A DNA stretch of 64,000 nt from Protula sp. h YS-2021 (lineage: Eukaryota > Annelida > Polychaeta > Sabellida > Serpulidae), in NCBI GenBank assembly GCA_949752745.1, contig OX457029.1:12836039-12900038 (forward strand). The letters are read 5' to 3'. The notes beneath the pieces are model-generated. The model made no database searches and was not told the origin of the DNA. It saw only the letters and a program-made list of their open reading frames with translations. Of this stretch, positions 23,351 to 40,498 are shown piece after piece. The number at the start of each line of letters is the position of its first letter. Positions within the stretch are counted from its first letter, which is position 1. Made by a program: the position numbers and the translations under genes.

Positions 23351-23763
23351 ATGTACTTCATATGCAGTGCCCATGTAATTTTTATATACTCCATATGTAC
23401 TTCTTACCTAATTTATATGTATTTTTTACGTGTTTCATATATACTTCTTACGCACATTCGTATGTACTTCTTATGTACTTCATATGTACTTCTTTCGCAA
23501 TTAATGTGCACTTCTTGGGTACTCCGTATGCACTTCTTGCCTAATTCAAATATACTTCCTAGGTACTTCATATGTACTTCTTATGTGCTTGTATCTACTT
23601 CTTAGTTATTCATATGTACTTCTTGCGTATTTGTGTGTACTTCTTACGTAATTCATACGTACTTCTTGGGTACTTCATATGTACTTCTAACGTACTTCAA
23701 ATGTAATTCTTACGTTTTCATATGTACTTCTTGCGTACATGATATGTACAGTTTATGTACTAT
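23351..23763. repeat. Minisatellite, period about 22 bp, about 18 units
   Basis: The unit is approximately TATGTACTTCTTACGTACT plus TCA, with frequent substitutions and 1-2 base length changes. The TATGTACTTCTT half is best conserved and the second half more variable. Confidence 0.9.
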
Positions 23764-24389: not shown

Positions 24390-24395
24390 TCGCAA
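24390..24395. repeat. Left copy of TCGCAA flanking the palindromic element (candidate target-site duplication)
   Basis: TCGCAA here and at 30125-30130 directly flank the two ends of the inverted-repeat element. A 6-bp duplication fits several integrase-type DNA elements including Polinton/Maverick. An alternative register, CGCAAC/CGCAAT, has one mismatch and gives more symmetric AGTA...TACT ends. Confidence 0.65.
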
Positions 24396-24449
24396 CAGTA
24401 TTAGGAAAGTAAGGGTTCTGCCACAGTGACGTCATTCTACCCCCCCCCC

Positions 24450-24565
24450 CCAGCCGGCAGTCGGGACAGACCCCCCCTAGCCGGCAGTCGGGACAGACCC
24501 CCCCAGCCGGCAGTCGGGACAGCCCCCCCCCCCCCCCTAGCCGGCAGTCGGGACAGACCCCCCCC
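24450..24565. repeat. GC-rich subterminal tandem repeats of the left arm
   Basis: AGCCGGCAGTCGGGACAG recurs about four times, separated by C-runs and spaced about 26-40 bases. The right arm (30014-30080) has two. The copy-number difference suggests slippage or unequal exchange. The element's outer end contains a CRE-like TGACGTCA next to these repeats. Confidence 0.85.
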
Positions 24566-24570
24566 CCTTA

Positions 24571-24935
24571 CTTAAAATTGCGATAACTTTCGTTATTGTT
24601 GACCGATTTGTATAAAAATTTCACTGTTTGATTCAGTTTTATGTAAAATTTTAACATAGTCATGGGCTACTTGCACCAACGGCTGTATTCATTTTTGCAA
24701 CAAGCCGCCATTTTAACTTAAAATTGCGATTACTTTCCTTATAGTTGACCGATTTGTATGAAAATTTCGCTGTTTGATTCAGTTTTATATCTAGTTTTAA
24801 CATAGTCATTGGCTAGTTGCACCGACGGCTGTATGCATTTTTTGTCGCATGCCGCCATTTTAACTTAAAAGTGACCTAACTTTCGTTATACTTAACCAAT
24901 TTGTATGAAAATTACACTGTTTGATTCAGTTATTT
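24571..24935. repeat. Tandem repeat of about 146 bp in the left arm (2.5 units)
   Basis: Units begin CTTAAAATTGCGATAACTTTCG at 24571, 24717 and 24864, the last truncated. Each contains TGTTTGATTCAGTTTTAT and GCCGCCATTTTAACTTAA. The array is mirrored in the right arm at about 29655-30012. No coding frame was seen. Confidence 0.85.
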
Positions 24936-25231
24936 CCTGTGTTCGCGGATGAATACCATTTGGCGGATGAATACCATTTGACTTCACCGCTAGATGTCTC
25001 TGCTGCTCTACAACTGCAGGTGAGACATTCAAGAGAGTAAAATTCTGCTGAGTCAGCAATTCTGAACAAGTTTTAAAAGTTACACATCATATTTTGATTA
25101 CATGTAAGTAGCATAAATTTCAGAGTGCACTCGTTCAGAGCGTGAAACGATCAATAAATTTGAGAAGGAATGGGGTTTACCCTACGTTAAGCCCAATGTT
25201 ATGTTTTATGTCATAGTAGTTGGAAAATGAC

Positions 25232-25455
25232 ACTTCTAAAGCACATTTAACAAATGTAGTTTTTGGAAAACATATAATGTATAAAATAAGTTTGAACATT
25301 TTACTATGGTGTAGTAGGGTAAAAATCAGAGTTCTAAAGCACATTTAACAAATGTAGTTTTGGAAAATATAATGTATAAAATAAGTTTGAACATTTTACC
25401 ATGGTGTAGTAGGGTAAAAATCAGAGTTCTAAACACAATTTAACAAATTTAGTTT
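25232..25455. repeat. Tandem repeat of about 97 bp in the left arm
   Basis: TTCTAAAGCACATTTAACAA recurs at about 25232, 25331 and 25426 (last unit partial), with ATAATGTATAAAATAAG and GTGTAGTAGGGTAAAAATC inside each unit. It is mirrored at about 29125-29350. Confidence 0.85.
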
Positions 25456-25537
25456 TTGACAAGCCCCATTCGAAACACGTGTTTGAATTATTTTTTTAGA
25501 ACATATTACGTCATGGTATTGTTCAATAATATTTTTA

Positions 25538-25675
25538 ACAAGTTCAACAGTTGTTCAACAAATTGTTCAACAAGTTGTTCAACATGTTCAATAAGTTGTT
25601 CAACACGTTCAACATGTTGTTGTTCAACATGTTGTTCAACATGTTCAACAAGTTGTTGTTCAACAAGTTGTGTGT
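25538..25675. repeat. GTTCAACA iteron cluster upstream of the left zinc-finger gene
   Basis: About a dozen GTTCAACA or TGTTCAACAAGTTG-type units lie head to tail, many forming small palindromes (GTTCAACAAGTTGTTC). They end about 57 bases before the zinc-finger start. The mirrored cluster is at 28907-29043. Iterons of this kind can be transcription-factor sites or a replication-initiator array; neither is shown here. Confidence 0.8.
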
Positions 25676-25731
25676 AAAGCTATGTTCAAAGACTTTCTTA
25701 TCATTTGAATAGTGTAGGTTGAACCGAAACG

Positions 25732-26478
25732 ATGTATCAATGCAACATTTGTTCGAAATCTTACAATTGGCCACAAAGTCTTAAAAGACACTTAAAGGTT
25801 GCTCACACTTCAGAAGTGGATGAAGAATATATGGAATATATGGAAAACCCTGTAAAACTACCTTTCACGGAAACTTTAGATGAGTCTTCTATGGAAAGTC
25901 AAAGCGTCAACATAGCTGAAAAGAATGCACATGCTTGTACAGAATGTGGTGCATTATACAACAGCGAAGAAGCTTTGCTCAAACATATGGAGACGTGCGG
26001 TAAGGATGCTGATGACAGGAGTTCTGAAAGTGAGTCAGAAACAGACTCTGAAAGTGAGTTACAAATAGACTCTGTTTGGCATGATATGGTTCAAGAAGTC
26101 TACGACGACTATGATAACAAATTTCAAGAAAAGGTTTTAGAATATGAAGAACAAGGACTTGAAAATGCGCGTGAAATAGCAAGTTATGACCCCCGACCCA
26201 TTTATAAGCATGGACTAAAACAACTGTTTATGAGACTGTTCAACTATACCCAGCGTCTAGAACAAAGCCAACATTATCAAAAGATTTTAGAGGACGTTAA
26301 TTACTTTGTTGATGAAAAACATTATAAGTATTCCAAAGCACTAAAGGCGGCTATAAGGAAAAACAATACATTCTTTGAAGAGCTACTAGATATGGAGGAG
26401 GAGGAGGATGGTAGCAGTGACGAAGAAAGTGGCATGGACAATGAGGTGAAACAGATGCAGAAGAATAGTGTTATTTGA
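25732..26478 (+). CDS. C2H2/C2HC zinc-finger acidic protein, left-arm copy (altered C-terminus)
   Basis: This 248-residue protein is of unknown family. A classical C2H2 finger begins at the N-terminus (C4-x2-C7-x12-H20-x4-H25), and a second C2HC finger follows (C69-x2-C72-x12-H85-x3-C89). An acidic Ser/Glu-rich linker (about 93-110) leads into a mostly alpha-helical-looking region (about 115-215) and an acidic cluster (LDMEEEEDGSSDEES). The layout suggests a DNA-binding regulator. Compared with the right-arm copy a 10-bp deletion changes the last 11 residues, from EVQQSETDAEE to EVKQMQKNSVI-like, after the acidic patch. An AATAAA signal lies at 26490-26495. The gene converges on the PC4-domain gene. 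It is intronless, and lies antisense to the receptor gene within its intron. Confidence 0.85.
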   Translation: MYQCNICSKSYNWPQSLKRHLKVAHTSEVDEEYMEYMENPVKLPFTETLDESSMESQSVNIAEKNAHACTECGALYNSEEALLKHMETCGKDADDRSSESESETDSESELQIDSVWHDMVQEVYDDYDNKFQEKVLEYEEQGLENAREIASYDPRPIYKHGLKQLFMRLFNYTQRLEQSQHYQKILEDVNYFVDEKHYKYSKALKAAIRKNNTFFEELLDMEEEEDGSSDEESGMDNEVKQMQKNSVI

Positions 26479-26861
26479 CTAAACTTTATAATAAAGACTT
26501 TGTAAATGTTGTAATAGTTTATTAATTTTGTATTATTATCTATTACATTCCAGTATTGTATCATTATGTATATTATTCAAGTATTTTATTATTACGTATT
26601 ATATCCAAGTATTGTATGAGAAAAATAAATAAGTTGAAAAGCATCATAGGCGGTTCTTTTATTAAATATTACAAATATTTACAATTATGATAAAAACAAA
26701 ACTATTTCAAATACATATTATGCTAATACATGCACCTACTCATAAGAACTTTAATTGATAAGTTTACAAATGTTATAAAATCTAACTTTACATCAACCTA
26801 GATAATGTTAATTCATTTCATAGTCATACTGTTAAAATTGTATACAGTCACATATGACTTT

Positions 26862-27419
26862 CTACTCAACCATCTTCTGACAGTCACTACATTTATACAC
26901 ATCCATTTTCTGAAGCATGAGATCCACTGACGTCATTTGCTGCTTCAGCATTTGCCAGTCTTTCAATGACAACAAAATTCCCTTCTTGGTAGGATATAAC
27001 CTCCCAGATGCATGATTCGTAATATATTTACGAATGTTAACCATCACTTTCTGTTGATATTTCACCAATTTAATATATGTTTCTCCATTAATGGGTATCA
27101 TAACCAGTGAATCGTCTACACGCATCTCCTTCATGGTGGTATCAGCTTTACGCTCCGGTTCTCGCTTCATCTTAGGCTCTGTCTTAATTTTTTGCATTTT
27201 ACACGACGTAGTCTTAGCTGTTAACTCATCTCGTTTTATCTTTCTAAAATGTGGTCGCTTTTGACGCTGCTGATGTGACTTCACCTTGGAATCTACCCTG
27301 GGCATTGCCTTAGACTTTGCTGTAGGTATTGTCTCAGGCTTTACTATAAAATTTTCTGCAGGCATTGTCTCACTCACTATAGAGCATAAAAGGCATCTGT
27401 CCTCAGACATAACGTACAT
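26862..27419 (-). CDS. PC4-domain (transcriptional coactivator p15-like) ssDNA-binding protein, 185 aa
   Basis: The start codon and residues 1 to about 114 lie in the unique spacer; the 3' third lies in the left arm. The N-terminus has a CxxC (C9, C12) and a basic, low-complexity linker with KRPHFRKIKRDE and KTEPKMKREPER. Residues about 112-168 read as a PC4 C-terminal domain: strand-rich YIKLVKYQQKVMVNIRKY, the TKKGILLSLKDWQMLKQQ turn-helix, and a terminal CSDC (C177/C180). PC4 domains bind single-stranded or melted DNA as dimers and occur in host SUB1 and also in some phages and mobile elements. The pairing with a zinc-finger regulator suggests a role in element transcription or replication, but this is inference. 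A minus-strand AATAAA lies at about 26661-26656. Confidence 0.8.
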   Translation of the reverse strand: MYVMSEDRCLLCSIVSETMPAENFIVKPETIPTAKSKAMPRVDSKVKSHQQRQKRPHFRKIKRDELTAKTTSCKMQKIKTEPKMKREPERKADTTMKEMRVDDSLVMIPINGETYIKLVKYQQKVMVNIRKYITNHASGRLYPTKKGILLSLKDWQMLKQQMTSVDLMLQKMDVYKCSDCQKMVE

Positions 27420-27490
27420 TCTGTATCAAGATACTGAAGTGTGAACATGTCGACAGTGAGTGAACAACAACTACCATCTATGTCAAATGT
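27080..27490. other. Unique spacer at the palindrome centre
   Basis: This is the only part of the element present once. It holds the 5' two-thirds of the PC4-domain gene (minus) and, 27 bases away on the other strand, an ATG at 27447 opening a 17-codon frame (MSTVSEQQLPSMSNVIY) that stops just inside the right arm. The latter looks like the start of a third gene cut by the rearrangement. Confidence 0.6.
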
Positions 27491-27708
27491 CATATATTAA
27501 ATTGGTGAAATATCAACAGAAAGTGATGGTTAACATTCGTAAATATATTACGAATCATGCATCTGGGAGGTTATATCCTACCAAGAAGGGAATTTTGTTG
27601 TCATTGAAAGACTGGCAAATGCTGAAGCAGCAAATGACGTCAGTGGATCTCATGCTTCAGAAAATGGATGTGTATAAATGTAGTGACTGTCAGAAGATGG
27701 TTGAGTAG
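27487..27708 (+). pseudogene. Truncated PC4-domain gene, right-arm copy
   Basis: This is the right-arm counterpart of the PC4 gene's 3' end, with the same domain and CSDC terminus. It has lost all upstream coding sequence. The first ATG in frame is at 27487, four bases before the arm boundary, so at most a 73-residue domain-only protein could be made. Any use of the GTG upstream at 27460 is unsupported. The retained part is essentially the entire PC4 domain, so a short functional product is conceivable. Confidence 0.7.
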
Positions 27709-28101
27709 AAAGTCATATGCGACTGTATACAATTTTAACAGTATGACTATGAAATGAATTAACATTATCTAGGTTGATGTAAAGTTAGATTTTATAACAT
27801 TTGTAAACTTATCAATTTAAGTTCTTATGAGTAGGTGCATGTATTAGCATAATATGTATTTGAAATAGTTTTGTTTTTATCATAATTGTAAATATTTGTA
27901 ATATTTAATAAAAGAACCGCCTATGATGCTTTTCAACTTATTTATTTTTCTCATACAATACTTGGATATAATACGTAATAATAAAATACTTGAATAATAT
28001 ACATAATGATACAATACTTGAATATAATAGACAATAATACAAAATTAATAAACTATTACAACATTTACAAAGTCTTTATTATAAAGTTTAGTCAAATAAC
28101 A

Positions 28102-28848
28102 CTATTCTTCTGCATCTGTTTCACTCTGTTGCACCTCATTGTCCATGCCACTTTCTTCGTCACTGCTACCATCCTCCTCCTCCTCCATATCTAGTAGCTC
28201 TTCAAAGAATGTATTGTTTTTCCTTATAGCCGCCTTTAGTGCTTTGGAATACTTATAATGTTTTTCATCAACAAAGTAATTAACGTCCTCTAAAATCTTT
28301 TGATAATGTTGGCTTTGTTCTAGACGCTGGGTATAGTTGAACAGTCTCATAAACAGTTGTTTTAGTCCATGCTTATAAATGGGTCGGGGGTCATAACTTG
28401 CTATTTCACGCGCATTTTCAAGTCCTTGTTCTTCATATTCTAAAACCTTTTCTTGAAATTTGTTATCATAGTCGTCGTAGACTTCTTGAACCATATCATG
28501 CCAAACAGAGTCTATTTGTAACTCACTTTCAGAGTCTGTTTCTGACTCACTTTCAGAACTCCTGTCATCAGCATCCTTACCGCACGTCTCCATATGTTTG
28601 AGCAAAGCTTCTTCGCTGTTGTATAATGCACCACATTCTGTACAAGCATGTGCATTCTTTTCAGCTATGTTGACGCTTTGACTTTCCATAGAAGACTCAT
28701 CTAAAGTTTCCGTGAAAGGTAGTTTTACAGGGTTTTCCATATATTCCATATATTCTTCATCCACTTCTGAAGTGTGAGCAACCTTTAAGTGTCTTTTAAG
28801 ACTTTGTGGCCAATTGTAAGATTTCGAACAAATGTTGCATTGATACAT
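28102..28848 (-). CDS. C2H2/C2HC zinc-finger acidic protein, right-arm copy (probably the intact form)
   Basis: 248 residues, identical by eye to the left copy through the second finger, the helical region and the acidic patch. It ends EVQQSETDAEE, continuing the acidic character, so this is probably the ancestral C-terminus. Finger ligands are C4/C7/H20/H25 and C69/C72/H85/C89. The start follows the mirrored GTTCAACA iteron cluster, and the gene converges on the truncated PC4 copy. Two conserved open copies in opposite arms imply recent formation or arm-to-arm homogenisation. Confidence 0.85.
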   Translation of the reverse strand: MYQCNICSKSYNWPQSLKRHLKVAHTSEVDEEYMEYMENPVKLPFTETLDESSMESQSVNIAEKNAHACTECGALYNSEEALLKHMETCGKDADDRSSESESETDSESELQIDSVWHDMVQEVYDDYDNKFQEKVLEYEEQGLENAREIASYDPRPIYKHGLKQLFMRLFNYTQRLEQSQHYQKILEDVNYFVDEKHYKYSKALKAAIRKNNTFFEELLDMEEEEDGSSDEESGMDNEVQQSETDAEE

Positions 28849-28906
28849 CGTTTCGGTTCAACCTACACTATTCAAATGATAAGAAAGTCTTTGAACATAG
28901 CTTTAC

Positions 28907-29043
28907 ACACAACTTGTTGAACAACAACTTGTTGAACATGTTGAACAACATGTCGAACAACAACATGTTGAACGTTTTGAACAACATATTGAACATGTTG
29001 AACAACTTGTTGAACAATTTGTTGAACAACTGTTGAACTTGTT
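28907..29043. repeat. GTTCAACA iteron cluster, right arm
   Basis: This is the mirror copy of the left cluster, read as TGTTGAAC on the plus strand. A few units carry substitutions, such as an ATATTGAAC unit, relative to the left arm. Confidence 0.8.
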
Positions 29044-29124
29044 AAAAATATTATTGAACAATACCATGACGTAATATGTTCTAAAAAAATAATTCAAACA
29101 CGTGTTTCGAATGGGGCTTGTCAA

Positions 29125-30080
29125 AAACTAAATTTGTTAAATTGTGTTTAGAACTCTGATTTTTACCCTACTACACCATGGTAAAATGTTCAAACTTATT
29201 TTATACATTATATTTTCCAAAACTACATTTGTTAAATGTGCTTTAGAACTCTGATTTTTACCCTACTACACCATAGTAAAATGTTCAAACTTATTTTATA
29301 CATTATATGTTTTCCAAAAACTACATTTGTTAAATGTGCTTTAGAAGTGTCATTTTCCAACTACTATGACATAAAACATAACATTGGGCTTAACGTAGGG
29401 TAAACCCCATTCCTTCTCAAATTTATTGATCGTTTCACGCTCTGAACGAGTGCACTCTGAAATTTATGCTACTTACATGTAATCAAAATATGATGTGTAA
29501 CTTTTAAAACTTGTTCAGAATTGCTGACTCAGCAGAATTTTACTCTCTTGAATGTCTCACCTGCAGTTGTAGAGCAGCAGAGACATCTAGCGGTGAAGTC
29601 AAATGGTATTCATCCGCCAAATGGTATTCATCCGCGAACACAGGAAATAACTGAATCAAACAGTGTAATTTTCATACAAATTGGTTAAGTATAACGAAAG
29701 TTAGGTCACTTTTAAGTTAAAATGGCGGCATGCGACAAAAAATGCATACAGCCGTCGGTGCAACTAGCCAATGACTATGTTAAAACTAGATATAAAACTG
29801 AATCAAACAGCGAAATTTTCATACAAATCGGTCAACTATAACGAAAGTTATCGCAATTTTAAGTTAAAATGGCGGCTTGTTGCAAAAATGCATGCAGCAG
29901 TCGGTGCAAGTAGCCCATGACTATGTTAAAATTTTACATAAAACTTAATCAAACAGTGAAATTTTTATACAAATCGGTCAACTATAACGAAAGTTATCGC
30001 AATTTTAAGTAAGGTGGGGGGGGTTCTGTCCCGACTGCCGGCTAGGACGGGGTCTGTCCCGACTGCCGGCTGGGGGGGGG
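29125..30080. repeat. Mirrored tandem arrays of the right arm
   Basis: It contains, in inverted order, the array of about 97 bp (29125-29350), the array of about 146 bp (29655-30012) and two GC-rich repeats (30014-30080). It corresponds to 24450-25455 in the left arm. Confidence 0.8.
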
Positions 30081-30124
30081 GGTAGAATGACGTCACTGTG
30101 GCAGAACCCTGACTTTCCTACTAC

Positions 30125-30130
30125 TCGCAA
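30125..30130. repeat. Right copy of TCGCAA flanking the palindromic element
   Basis: It directly abuts the outer end CCTACTAC of the right arm and equals 24390-24395. Confidence 0.65.
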
Positions 30131-32541
30131 TAAAGCGCATGTTTACAGACGTTCTTAAAAACAGACTTTACGTTTAATTATACTGTGCGAAAAAATTATG
30201 ACGAAGTAAAAGAGCACGAATAAATAGAAACTAAAATGTATGAAATATAAATGTTTCGATACAAGTGAAATTGTCGCGAGGCCACTTTAGTGATCGCGAG
30301 AAAAATTTTGAATTTATAGCATACTGGTTTTGATGTTTTGGACGAATATACGCCCATACCAACTCGGCACTGTGTTTCTTCGCTTTTACTCTAGTTTCAC
30401 TTTAGATGTAGTATTATGATGATCCCTTCATGGAACTATTTTAAATTTTCTACATAATGAAACTGATATAGTTTGTATTCGTTTGAGTTCCGCACAGTTT
30501 TCTTTCTTTTTTTGTTTTTTTGTTTTTTTTTTTTTGTTTTTTTTTTTTTTTTGAGCTACGAAAGAAATCTCCTGCTTTTCAGGAGTGTAACAGCTGTTTT
30601 TACAGTGCAGTATTTTTTATTTTGTTTTATTATTTATATTTTTTGTTGGACATGTTATTCAGCGAAACGGTACAAAGACACATGCTGTCTTTGACTTTGT
30701 TGTATTCAAATAGCTATAAACAGCTGTATTTAAACTGGTCATAGATTGCCGATATAGTCTACTGGAAACTTTTATTATGAAATTAATTTCATCTTTGTGT
30801 CAAAAAGTGACATTTTTTGTAGATTTTTATTTATTTATTCCGTATTTAAGGCGTTATTTGTTTGACTGGATTTAATTCTTGAAATAATATAAGACTCTGT
30901 AGGTTTTTGTATGTAATTTTGTACAGTTGAGGAGTATTCTTGAGTTCATCTCAGTTAGCGTCATGCAAGAGCGTCATGCAAGAATTAAATTCTCGGCACA
31001 ACGATCTTTCGTATTGATGCGTATCTGCAATTTTGGCTCGAAGACCAAAACGAGGACGAGCTTAAAAAGTCTTTAAATTTCATACATTTTGTAAATGTCT
31101 AACTTGAAATTATTTCTGAAATGTTTTCTGTCCCTCTATATGCTATCTTTCTTTAAAAACAGTTTCTAAATCCTCCCCTTTTAAGAGCTTTTTGGATTAG
31201 TTCTTTTAATTATGCATTACGACTTGCGATTGTTCGCGAAGTAAAAATGTCTTACTTGATTATTTATTTGGCTGAGGTTCTTTTGTTGACATTTTAAAAT
31301 GTCAAGAACGAAAGTACTTGGAGAAAAACATCATTTTCTCCACACAAAATTATTTTGTTTTAAATAATATTCGTGGCAGAGCACAATAAGTTTGTTTGGA
31401 ATTGGCTTTCTAAGCTGGGTATTTTCACCCCCAGAACAAAAAGCCCAGGAGACGTGTTACGTCACACAGTAAAAATTAAAAACAAAACAATCAACTAACT
31501 ATCAAAACTAAAGCAAACAAGTTTATTAATCACTTAGAAATTTTCAGCGGATTCCCTACTGGGTGGGAGGAACAGGAACATCTTATACAGAATAGACCGA
31601 ACAGCCCAGAGGTCGGCAGTTGGACAACAACACAGAATCGTGTAATAACATGAAGTGCCGTTAAACTATGCTCAAAGGTTATCTGTAGGCAACATGTCAC
31701 CATATTTCTTTCTAATTATTTTGGCTGAAAGAATGAGGACTTCTGCATCAGTTCAGTGCATTGACAAACTAATTAAAAAGTGATGTGACTAAAGTGTAAA
31801 GATTAAAAAAAGCAGTTGCAAATACATTGAATTATGGTATCAGAGATTTAGCTACCCCACTAGACTCTTCTCAGGACACAACGGTATAGATACTATGCCT
31901 CCATAACATAAAAAAGAAACGTAAAACACCATCATACTGCTAAAAAACGCACTAAAACCGTAAGTAATAATTGTTCAATGTTAACCGCAACATAGAAGTC
32001 TATAGTCAAGCCATGCAATAAAGCACATACTAAGGCATACTGACTTATTTCAGAGTCAAAACATATGTTGGCACATGTAGACATATATCAGAGTCAAAAC
32101 ACATGCAGACACATGCTGACTTATTTCGAGGTAGGTCAACATTTTCACACTAGTCAATATTATTTCATGTGGACTCAAAATAAGTCAATGTCTGCTTGAC
32201 GTCAAGCCGCCGTAGATCCACAAGGCCTTAAAGTAATTAATATAAATAAATCTCCGCTGCAACATTTCCAAAAAACCTGCACGTAGGGTTACAACCTTGT
32301 CAGCTAAATGCTTGTCATATCAAGCAGTCTGGGTTCTGATTTAATGGCTGTCTCAATTCCATTATGACTTCTTAACAAAAGAGGCGAGATTGGATTGATG
32401 CTGTTGTAGACTTTCTAAAATAGGACTAGGAACGCAAATTGAGTGAGAAACTTGATTTCGAGTGAGCGCACAGTAATAACTTGACTTTGTAAAATAACGG
32501 AAACAAAGCTTTATGAACTTAATGGTTTAATAGAAGGAATC

Positions 32542-32601
<60 letters not shown>

Positions 32602-32623
32602 CAGACAGATAGGTAGATAAATG

Positions 32624-32664
<41 letters not shown>

Positions 32665-32665
32665 G

Positions 32666-32758
<93 letters not shown>
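32542..32758. repeat. (TAGA)n microsatellite, about 215 bp
   Basis: Nearly pure GATA/TAGA repeats with a degenerate block near 32600-32625. The YLSI-type minus-strand frames across it are artefacts. Confidence 0.97.
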
Positions 32759-40350: not shown

Positions 40351-40352
40351 GC

Positions 40353-40443
<91 letters not shown>

Positions 40444-40456
40444 CTCTCTCTCTCAA

Positions 40457-40498
<42 letters not shown>
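40351..40498. repeat. (TC)n microsatellite
   Basis: Nearly pure TC with two AATC interruptions, grading into TTTC at the end. It causes RERE-type frames on the minus strand. Confidence 0.97.

Follow-up and report, generated by a model that had tools for sequence, protein, structure and literature searches.

A palindromic element with zinc-finger and PC4 genes in Protula sp. h YS-2021 and its probable derivation from Polintons

A 64,000-nucleotide stretch of the Protula sp. h YS-2021 genome (contig OX457029.1 or C6, positions 12836039-12900038, referred to below as the window; the whole assembly comprises 863 Mb in 218 contigs) raises the question of how a mobile element comes to be its own mirror image. 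At 24397-30125 of the window, two arms in inverted order, each with a zinc-finger gene, surround a spacer in which a PC4-domain gene begins. The most probable answer, with a likelihood of about 0.8, is that this non-autonomous, palindromic element derives from a Polinton (Maverick), having arisen as a copy-back product of free linear DNA and having been integrated afterwards.

The palindrome, its genes and its ends

The inverted repeat is continuous, and an initial annotation of the window located it correctly except that both ends lie one base to the right of the 24396 and 30124 given there. Inverted-repeat detection and alignment of the arms place the left arm at 24397-27079 (+ strand), beginning at the terminal AGTATT, and the right arm at 27491-30125 (- strand), with a 411-bp spacer between them as had been estimated. 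The arms are 98.57% identical over 2594 aligned columns and 94.5% identical in the outermost 110. In one alignment they differ by 21 substitutions, two 1-base indels and two longer indels, one of 58 bp in a GC-rich array and the other of 10 bp at the 3′ end of the zinc-finger gene, with zero substitutions at 25627-26537.

From the tip inward, each arm consists of a 54-bp terminal repeat (24397-24450 and 30072-30125) with an AGT/ACT tip, a GC-rich array of 26-34-bp units (left, 24444-24567, +), a 146-bp tandem repeat (left, 2.5 copies, 24570-24931, +; right, 29649-30010, -), a 95-bp repeat with units of up to 98 bp found by repeat detection (25207-25462, +; 29118-29373, -), an array of GTTCAACAAGTT-type iterons (25542-25671, +; 28909-29038, -) and a C2H2 zinc-finger gene. 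The iterons and layered arrays, already recognized in the initial annotation, were recovered in tandem-repeat scans. Both termini also contain TGACGTCA, the CRE/ATF consensus, which recurs close to the ends in many of the relatives mapped.

Searches for open reading frames and domains found both zinc-finger genes complete, as had been claimed, at 248 amino acids (aa) each (25732-26478, +, with a C-terminus altered by the 10-bp deletion; 28102-28848, -). The PC4 domain resides in a 185-aa frame (26862-27419, -; PF02229, E 3e-10; PC4 structure 1pcf, E 6e-6) that starts in the spacer and runs into the left arm. The domain was correctly identified beforehand, but the N-terminus of this frame is chimeric: relatives begin with MSxVSEQQLPS or much alike, and the native 5′ part of the window gene sits in a flipped piece of the spacer. 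Mapping to relatives divides the spacer into a part oriented as in relatives (27080-27367, +) and this piece (27372-27490, +), which bears the normal PC4 start, with the family-native ATG at 27447, and is inverted with respect to most sampled relatives. The left arm reaches approximately codon 12 of PC4, counted from the normal start, before the strand flips, and the right arm, which lacks about 290 bp beside the centre and has a few filler bases there, opens with the 3′ portion of another PC4 copy, severed mid-gene (27491-27709, +). This centre would be explained by a fold-back that left a loop of some 115 bases and by one later deletion; the junction itself was not seen by eye in the 24 other mapped loci. 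Apart from these genes, the only ATG frame of at least 80 aa in the element is an antisense frame of 80 aa, in agreement with the earlier observation that no transposase is present. An Rfam scan of the window returned nothing at gathering scores.

The 6-bp flanking repeat that had been reported is present in imperfect form. CGCAAC (24391-24396) precedes the left arm and CGCAAT (30126-30131) follows the element end ...ACTACT, a 5/6 match for which the chance of five or more matching bases is 0.0046.

Relatives and the link to Polintons

A 26-base stretch of the zinc-finger gene, allowing up to two mismatches, has 1212 + 1138 matches (about 2,350) in the assembly, and its reversed control has 0. 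A genome search with the left arm scored 40 of 8788 candidates, and the resulting 147 matches were grouped by hand into 37 loci; 25 of these, the window included, were mapped in two maps that left out blast pieces shorter than 60 or 50 bases. Both ends were located at 14 of the 25, and exact 6-bp target repeats flank 11 of those 14: c3 (AACGGA), c4 (AATAAC), c8 (CAGCAA), c9 (TCTTCA), c10 (CATATG), c17 (GATATT), c18 (GTTTTA), c32 (ATGTTG), c35 (CCCGCA), c36 (GAGCCC) and c41 (AATATA). c14 has a direct repeat of 7 bp that is out of register by one base. The termini, AGTATT...ACTACT in the window, begin with AGTAGTAGG or AGTAGGG in relatives, and one end of c3 reads AATAGT. Vertebrate Mavericks are described as having the end motif (AGT)2//(ACT)2 and 6-bp target duplications (PMC8097293), and ends of this AGT...ACT type with 6-bp duplications are what the sampled copies contain.

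The mapped mini-elements are about 3-6 kb long and have no polymerase or integrase of their own. A plain form is exemplified by c3 (3776 bp), which reads terminus, repeats, zinc-finger gene forward, PC4 gene reverse, iteron piece, terminus. The initial annotation described long terminal inverted repeats (TIRs) in the window element, but the arms are not just TIRs: inverted repeats extend about 0.4 kb inward in c4 and 1.1 kb in c17, and c3 has none of at least 100 bp. The window arms are longer than the inverted repeats of these non-palindromic relatives, and the excess is attributed to fold-back duplication. A full zinc-finger frame of 243-248 aa occurs in 15 of 40 zinc-finger rows and a full PC4 frame with a MSxVSEQQLPS-like start in 12 of 27 PC4 rows. 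The ratio of nonsynonymous to synonymous substitution rates (dN/dS), pooled over non-independent pairs, is 0.51 for the zinc-finger gene (31 copies) and 0.69 for PC4 (20 copies), values that weakly suggest some selection on the proteins. A second mini-element near the C3:88075857 copy (L044 4420-7806, within C3:88077600-88087000) has both genes full-length, zinc finger of 243 aa from ATG and PC4 of 188 aa, and iteron-like arrays in both orientations.

The connection to larger elements comes through the zinc-finger protein. In P0001, the sole protein homologue found at E ≤0.001, an ATPase-like domain precedes the zinc-finger protein (43% identity over 162 aa). In the palindromic element L038, described below, an ATPase/zinc-finger protein matches the N-terminal finger of the window protein (42% over 26 aa, E 6e-5); its match to the finger, helical part and acidic tail at the C-terminal end of the window protein is not significant alone (18%, E 1.5). 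P0001 and the L038 protein are 33% identical over 414 columns (E 4e-57), which bridges the weak C-terminal match. Judged from these alignments, the window protein looks collinear with both ends of the L038 protein, with the ATPase domain missing between them. P0001 and the ATPase alignment were also modelled, but with mean pLDDT (predicted local distance difference test) scores of 39 and 43 the structures were too poor to use.

One relative (L019/L023, C5:14283862-14298631) contains zinc-finger and PC4 genes with broken frames, then a further frame, an ATPase and an rve integrase. Its ATPase matches P0001 (E 3e-19), and its integrase (PF00665, 4e-9) is 37% identical to that of L038. The further frame (L019:4049-4738), which may be minor-capsid-like, matched no Pfam family at cut-off and no relative in viral contigs. 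Outside the window element, rve integrases were found in L023 and in the palindromes L038, L042, L043 and L045, accompanied by a chromodomain in the one L038 frame scanned. The L038 ATPase carries GPSQSGKS, presumably the P-loop motif; the ATPase domain, present in relatives and not in the window, matches Adeno_IVa2 at E 1e-3, short of the Pfam cut-off. DNA_pol_B_2 (PF03175) is found at 49 or more genome loci when the matches listed are merged, none of them in the window, and 37 of the 49 PolB loci have a same-strand ATPase locus no more than 6 kb away. At C11:15395373, C3:71943239 and other loci there are stop-free PolB frames of 1351 aa, several adjoining stop-free ATPase frames, and these loci are perhaps young full-length Polintons.

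The earlier proposal of a deletion derivative of a Polinton/Maverick-related element is thus supported by L019/L023 with its ATPase and integrase, by the P0001 fusion and by the Maverick-like ends with 6-bp duplications. Of the genes expected in relatives by that proposal, integrase was found, and PolB was found in other Polintons and not in the relative with zinc-finger and PC4 genes; for a capsid gene there is one tentative candidate, the further frame of L019. Searches further afield yielded little: the PC4 protein had 14 candidates, none reaching E 0.001; in IMG/VR viral contigs the zinc-finger protein, PC4, P0001, the L019 protein and the ATPase had no relatives, and a TIR pattern was not matched exactly; and matches in PHROGs were weak at most.

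Origin of the mirrored arms

Zinc-finger matches lie on both strands at 14 of the 37 sampled loci. The zinc-finger end is mirrored outward in 12 of the 14 and the opposite way in two (C9:27711325 and C4:24294793), the former (c41) being a complete 5.8-kb element. The centre points vary (2094/2630 in c18, 2587/1564 in c8, 1890/2682 in c13; others are more complex), and the blast pieces overlap there by 4, 1 and 0 bases, respectively. A tree built from 39 arm rows of at least 220 bases pairs the two arms exclusively, and with strong support, in 11 of 13 palindromes; in most cases, therefore, unless gene conversion homogenized the arms, the mirror arose within one molecule. The host flanks of the window element are unmirrored (best ungapped identity 35% when mirrored) and the mirror ends at the terminus, which fits a fold-back that preceded insertion.

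Other Polintons of this genome are palindromic as well. Among 94 ATPase rows, a list that excludes rows matching the zinc-finger half alone, there are 14 mirrored pairs no more than 4 kb apart, all 14 with the same polarity. Of two mirrored PolB pairs, C5:28717970/28723094 has the polarity of the ATPase pairs and C3:98126045/98130170 the opposite. L038 is a palindrome of 7584 bp whose arms are 99.6% identical and which has two frames each for the integrase and the ATPase/zinc-finger protein. Little weight can be given to its target repeat, TAGATA, because it lies within a GATA microsatellite. L042, 8081 bp long and 99.7% identical to its own reverse complement, has the target repeat GCTAAC, and its central 5.7 kb is present again at L043 (99.2% over 5703). 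The fold-back point moves along one gene order: L038 has no match to the PolB of L045, L042 and L043 have no more of it than its last codons, at their centre, and PolB is in the loop of L045 and in the arms of L046. This last palindrome (L046 1-9398, C5:28716200-28726000) spans 9.4 kb or more, matches its reverse complement at 99.3% identity and carries PolB frames in mirrored arrangement.

The favoured mechanism begins with a parent Polinton that would exist as free linear DNA and be replicated from its ends by strand displacement, possibly with protein priming. A nascent or displaced strand would pass from one end through the zinc-finger gene into the PC4 gene, snap back on itself and be copied back to the starting end, yielding a linear molecule with an identical terminus at both ends. 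The integrase of the parent could then insert the palindrome in trans, creating the 6-bp target duplication, and one arm of the window copy would later have lost the bases beside its centre. The zinc-finger protein may bind the iterons and the PC4 protein may cover displaced single strands; mobilization in trans would resemble that of defective-interfering genomes.

Inverted duplication after integration, through a break in the integrated element followed by chromosomal fold-back and repair, would look alike at the centre, with junction overlaps of 0-4 bases such as those of c13, c8 and c18. Repair proceeding outward is expected to mirror the host flank, whereas the window mirror goes no further than the terminus; six palindromes of the family (c8, c9, c10, c18, c32 and c41) have exact target repeats on their two sides, and one palindrome centre is present at two places (L042/L043), all of which makes this origin unlikely. 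Nested or tandem insertion of two oppositely oriented mini-Polintons, or ectopic recombination among copies, is quite unlikely too: with so many zinc-finger matches in the genome close insertions do occur, as illustrated by the L044 mini-element about 5 kb from its neighbour, but the arms of most palindromes are sisters, a single pair of target repeats surrounds the whole wherever both ends were found, and the terminus pattern flags none at palindrome centres.

Sequencing reads that fold back as hairpins are known to make false palindromes. Such an artefact is not expected to end at termini with target repeats and differing host flanks, nor to have arms that differ by substitutions and indels, and it is therefore very improbable here. 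Least credible is a foldback-type DNA transposon (Galileo, FB or Tm1 type) unrelated to Polintons. Long TIRs with layered tandem arrays and variable structure are typical of that group and shared by the window element, but the gene set and the target-site length differ, and the 6-bp repeats, the AGT/ACT ends and the linkage of the zinc finger to a Polinton-type ATPase and integrase argue against it. Hairpin-end dimers of the poxvirus or parvovirus type would carry the terminus centrally rather than on the outside.

Several points weigh against a Polinton copy-back origin. Among the sampled relatives L019/L023 alone joins the zinc-finger and PC4 genes to an ATPase and integrase, its right end was not found, and a search of it with the L045 PolB gave no match; because of these features and its broken frames, a nested insertion is possible at this locus. 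The sisterhood of the arms is weak in c6 and not shown in c13, and elsewhere it could partly reflect gene conversion between arms. Target repeats match at less than 6/6 in the window and in c6 (4/6), at least one end was not located at 11 of the 25 mapped loci, and where a locus offered several end candidates the one mirroring the other end was chosen. The left-arm and ATPase genome searches scored best candidates only and may favour palindromes; several of the 14 ATPase pairs share one spacing and are not independent. Among the 100 exact zinc-finger matches listed there were three mirrored pairs no more than 3 kb apart, from which it is probable that most zinc-finger copies are not palindromic. 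Finally, a free molecule of the element has not been seen.

Comparison with known systems

The elements resemble Polintons in their 6-bp duplications, AGT...ACT ends and TIRs, and their relatives do so in the rve integrase (with chromodomain in L038), P-loop ATPase and DNA_pol_B_2. Intact vertebrate Mavericks measure 12.7-24.6 kb (PMC8097293), against about 3-6 kb for the mapped mini-elements. The window element differs further in being palindromic, in having neither polymerase nor integrase, and in carrying PC4 and an ATPase-less zinc-finger protein. Neither a palindromic Polinton nor a pair of zinc-finger and PC4 genes was met in the literature searched by title and abstract opening, with most subscription papers outside its coverage.

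Adenovirus and other protein-primed linear DNAs form defective palindromic genomes that depend on a helper. As here, one genome end is inverted at both ends around a variable centre; unlike those genomes, the elements described here are known as copies integrated in the host genome alone. It may tentatively be proposed that Polintons of Protula yield palindromic genomes of the defective-interfering kind, which replicate and integrate in trans as separate lineages, with one chosen end (iterons and zinc finger, or integrase and ATPase) doubled and amplified as such. The mini-elements, whose protein would be the Polinton ATPase/zinc-finger protein minus its ATPase domain, might then be satellites interfering with the parent.

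According to PMC8097293, no viral particles of Mavericks had been observed by 2021. Maverick replication has so far been inferred from gene content. Snap-back palindromes with termini and target duplications would constitute a fossil record of free linear replication followed by integration, in which the palindromes mark the points of fold-back along the genome and the end that is kept, as the uniform polarity of the ATPase pairs illustrates. The free stage of Polintons would thereby become testable by sequencing, and the zinc-finger-PC4 block would add a candidate module for replication or interference.

Elsewhere in the window, an imperfect tandem array of 16 copies of a 22-bp unit (23392-23749) lies directly outside the element, and long TAGA and CT microsatellites are located at 32542-32758 and 40352-40495.

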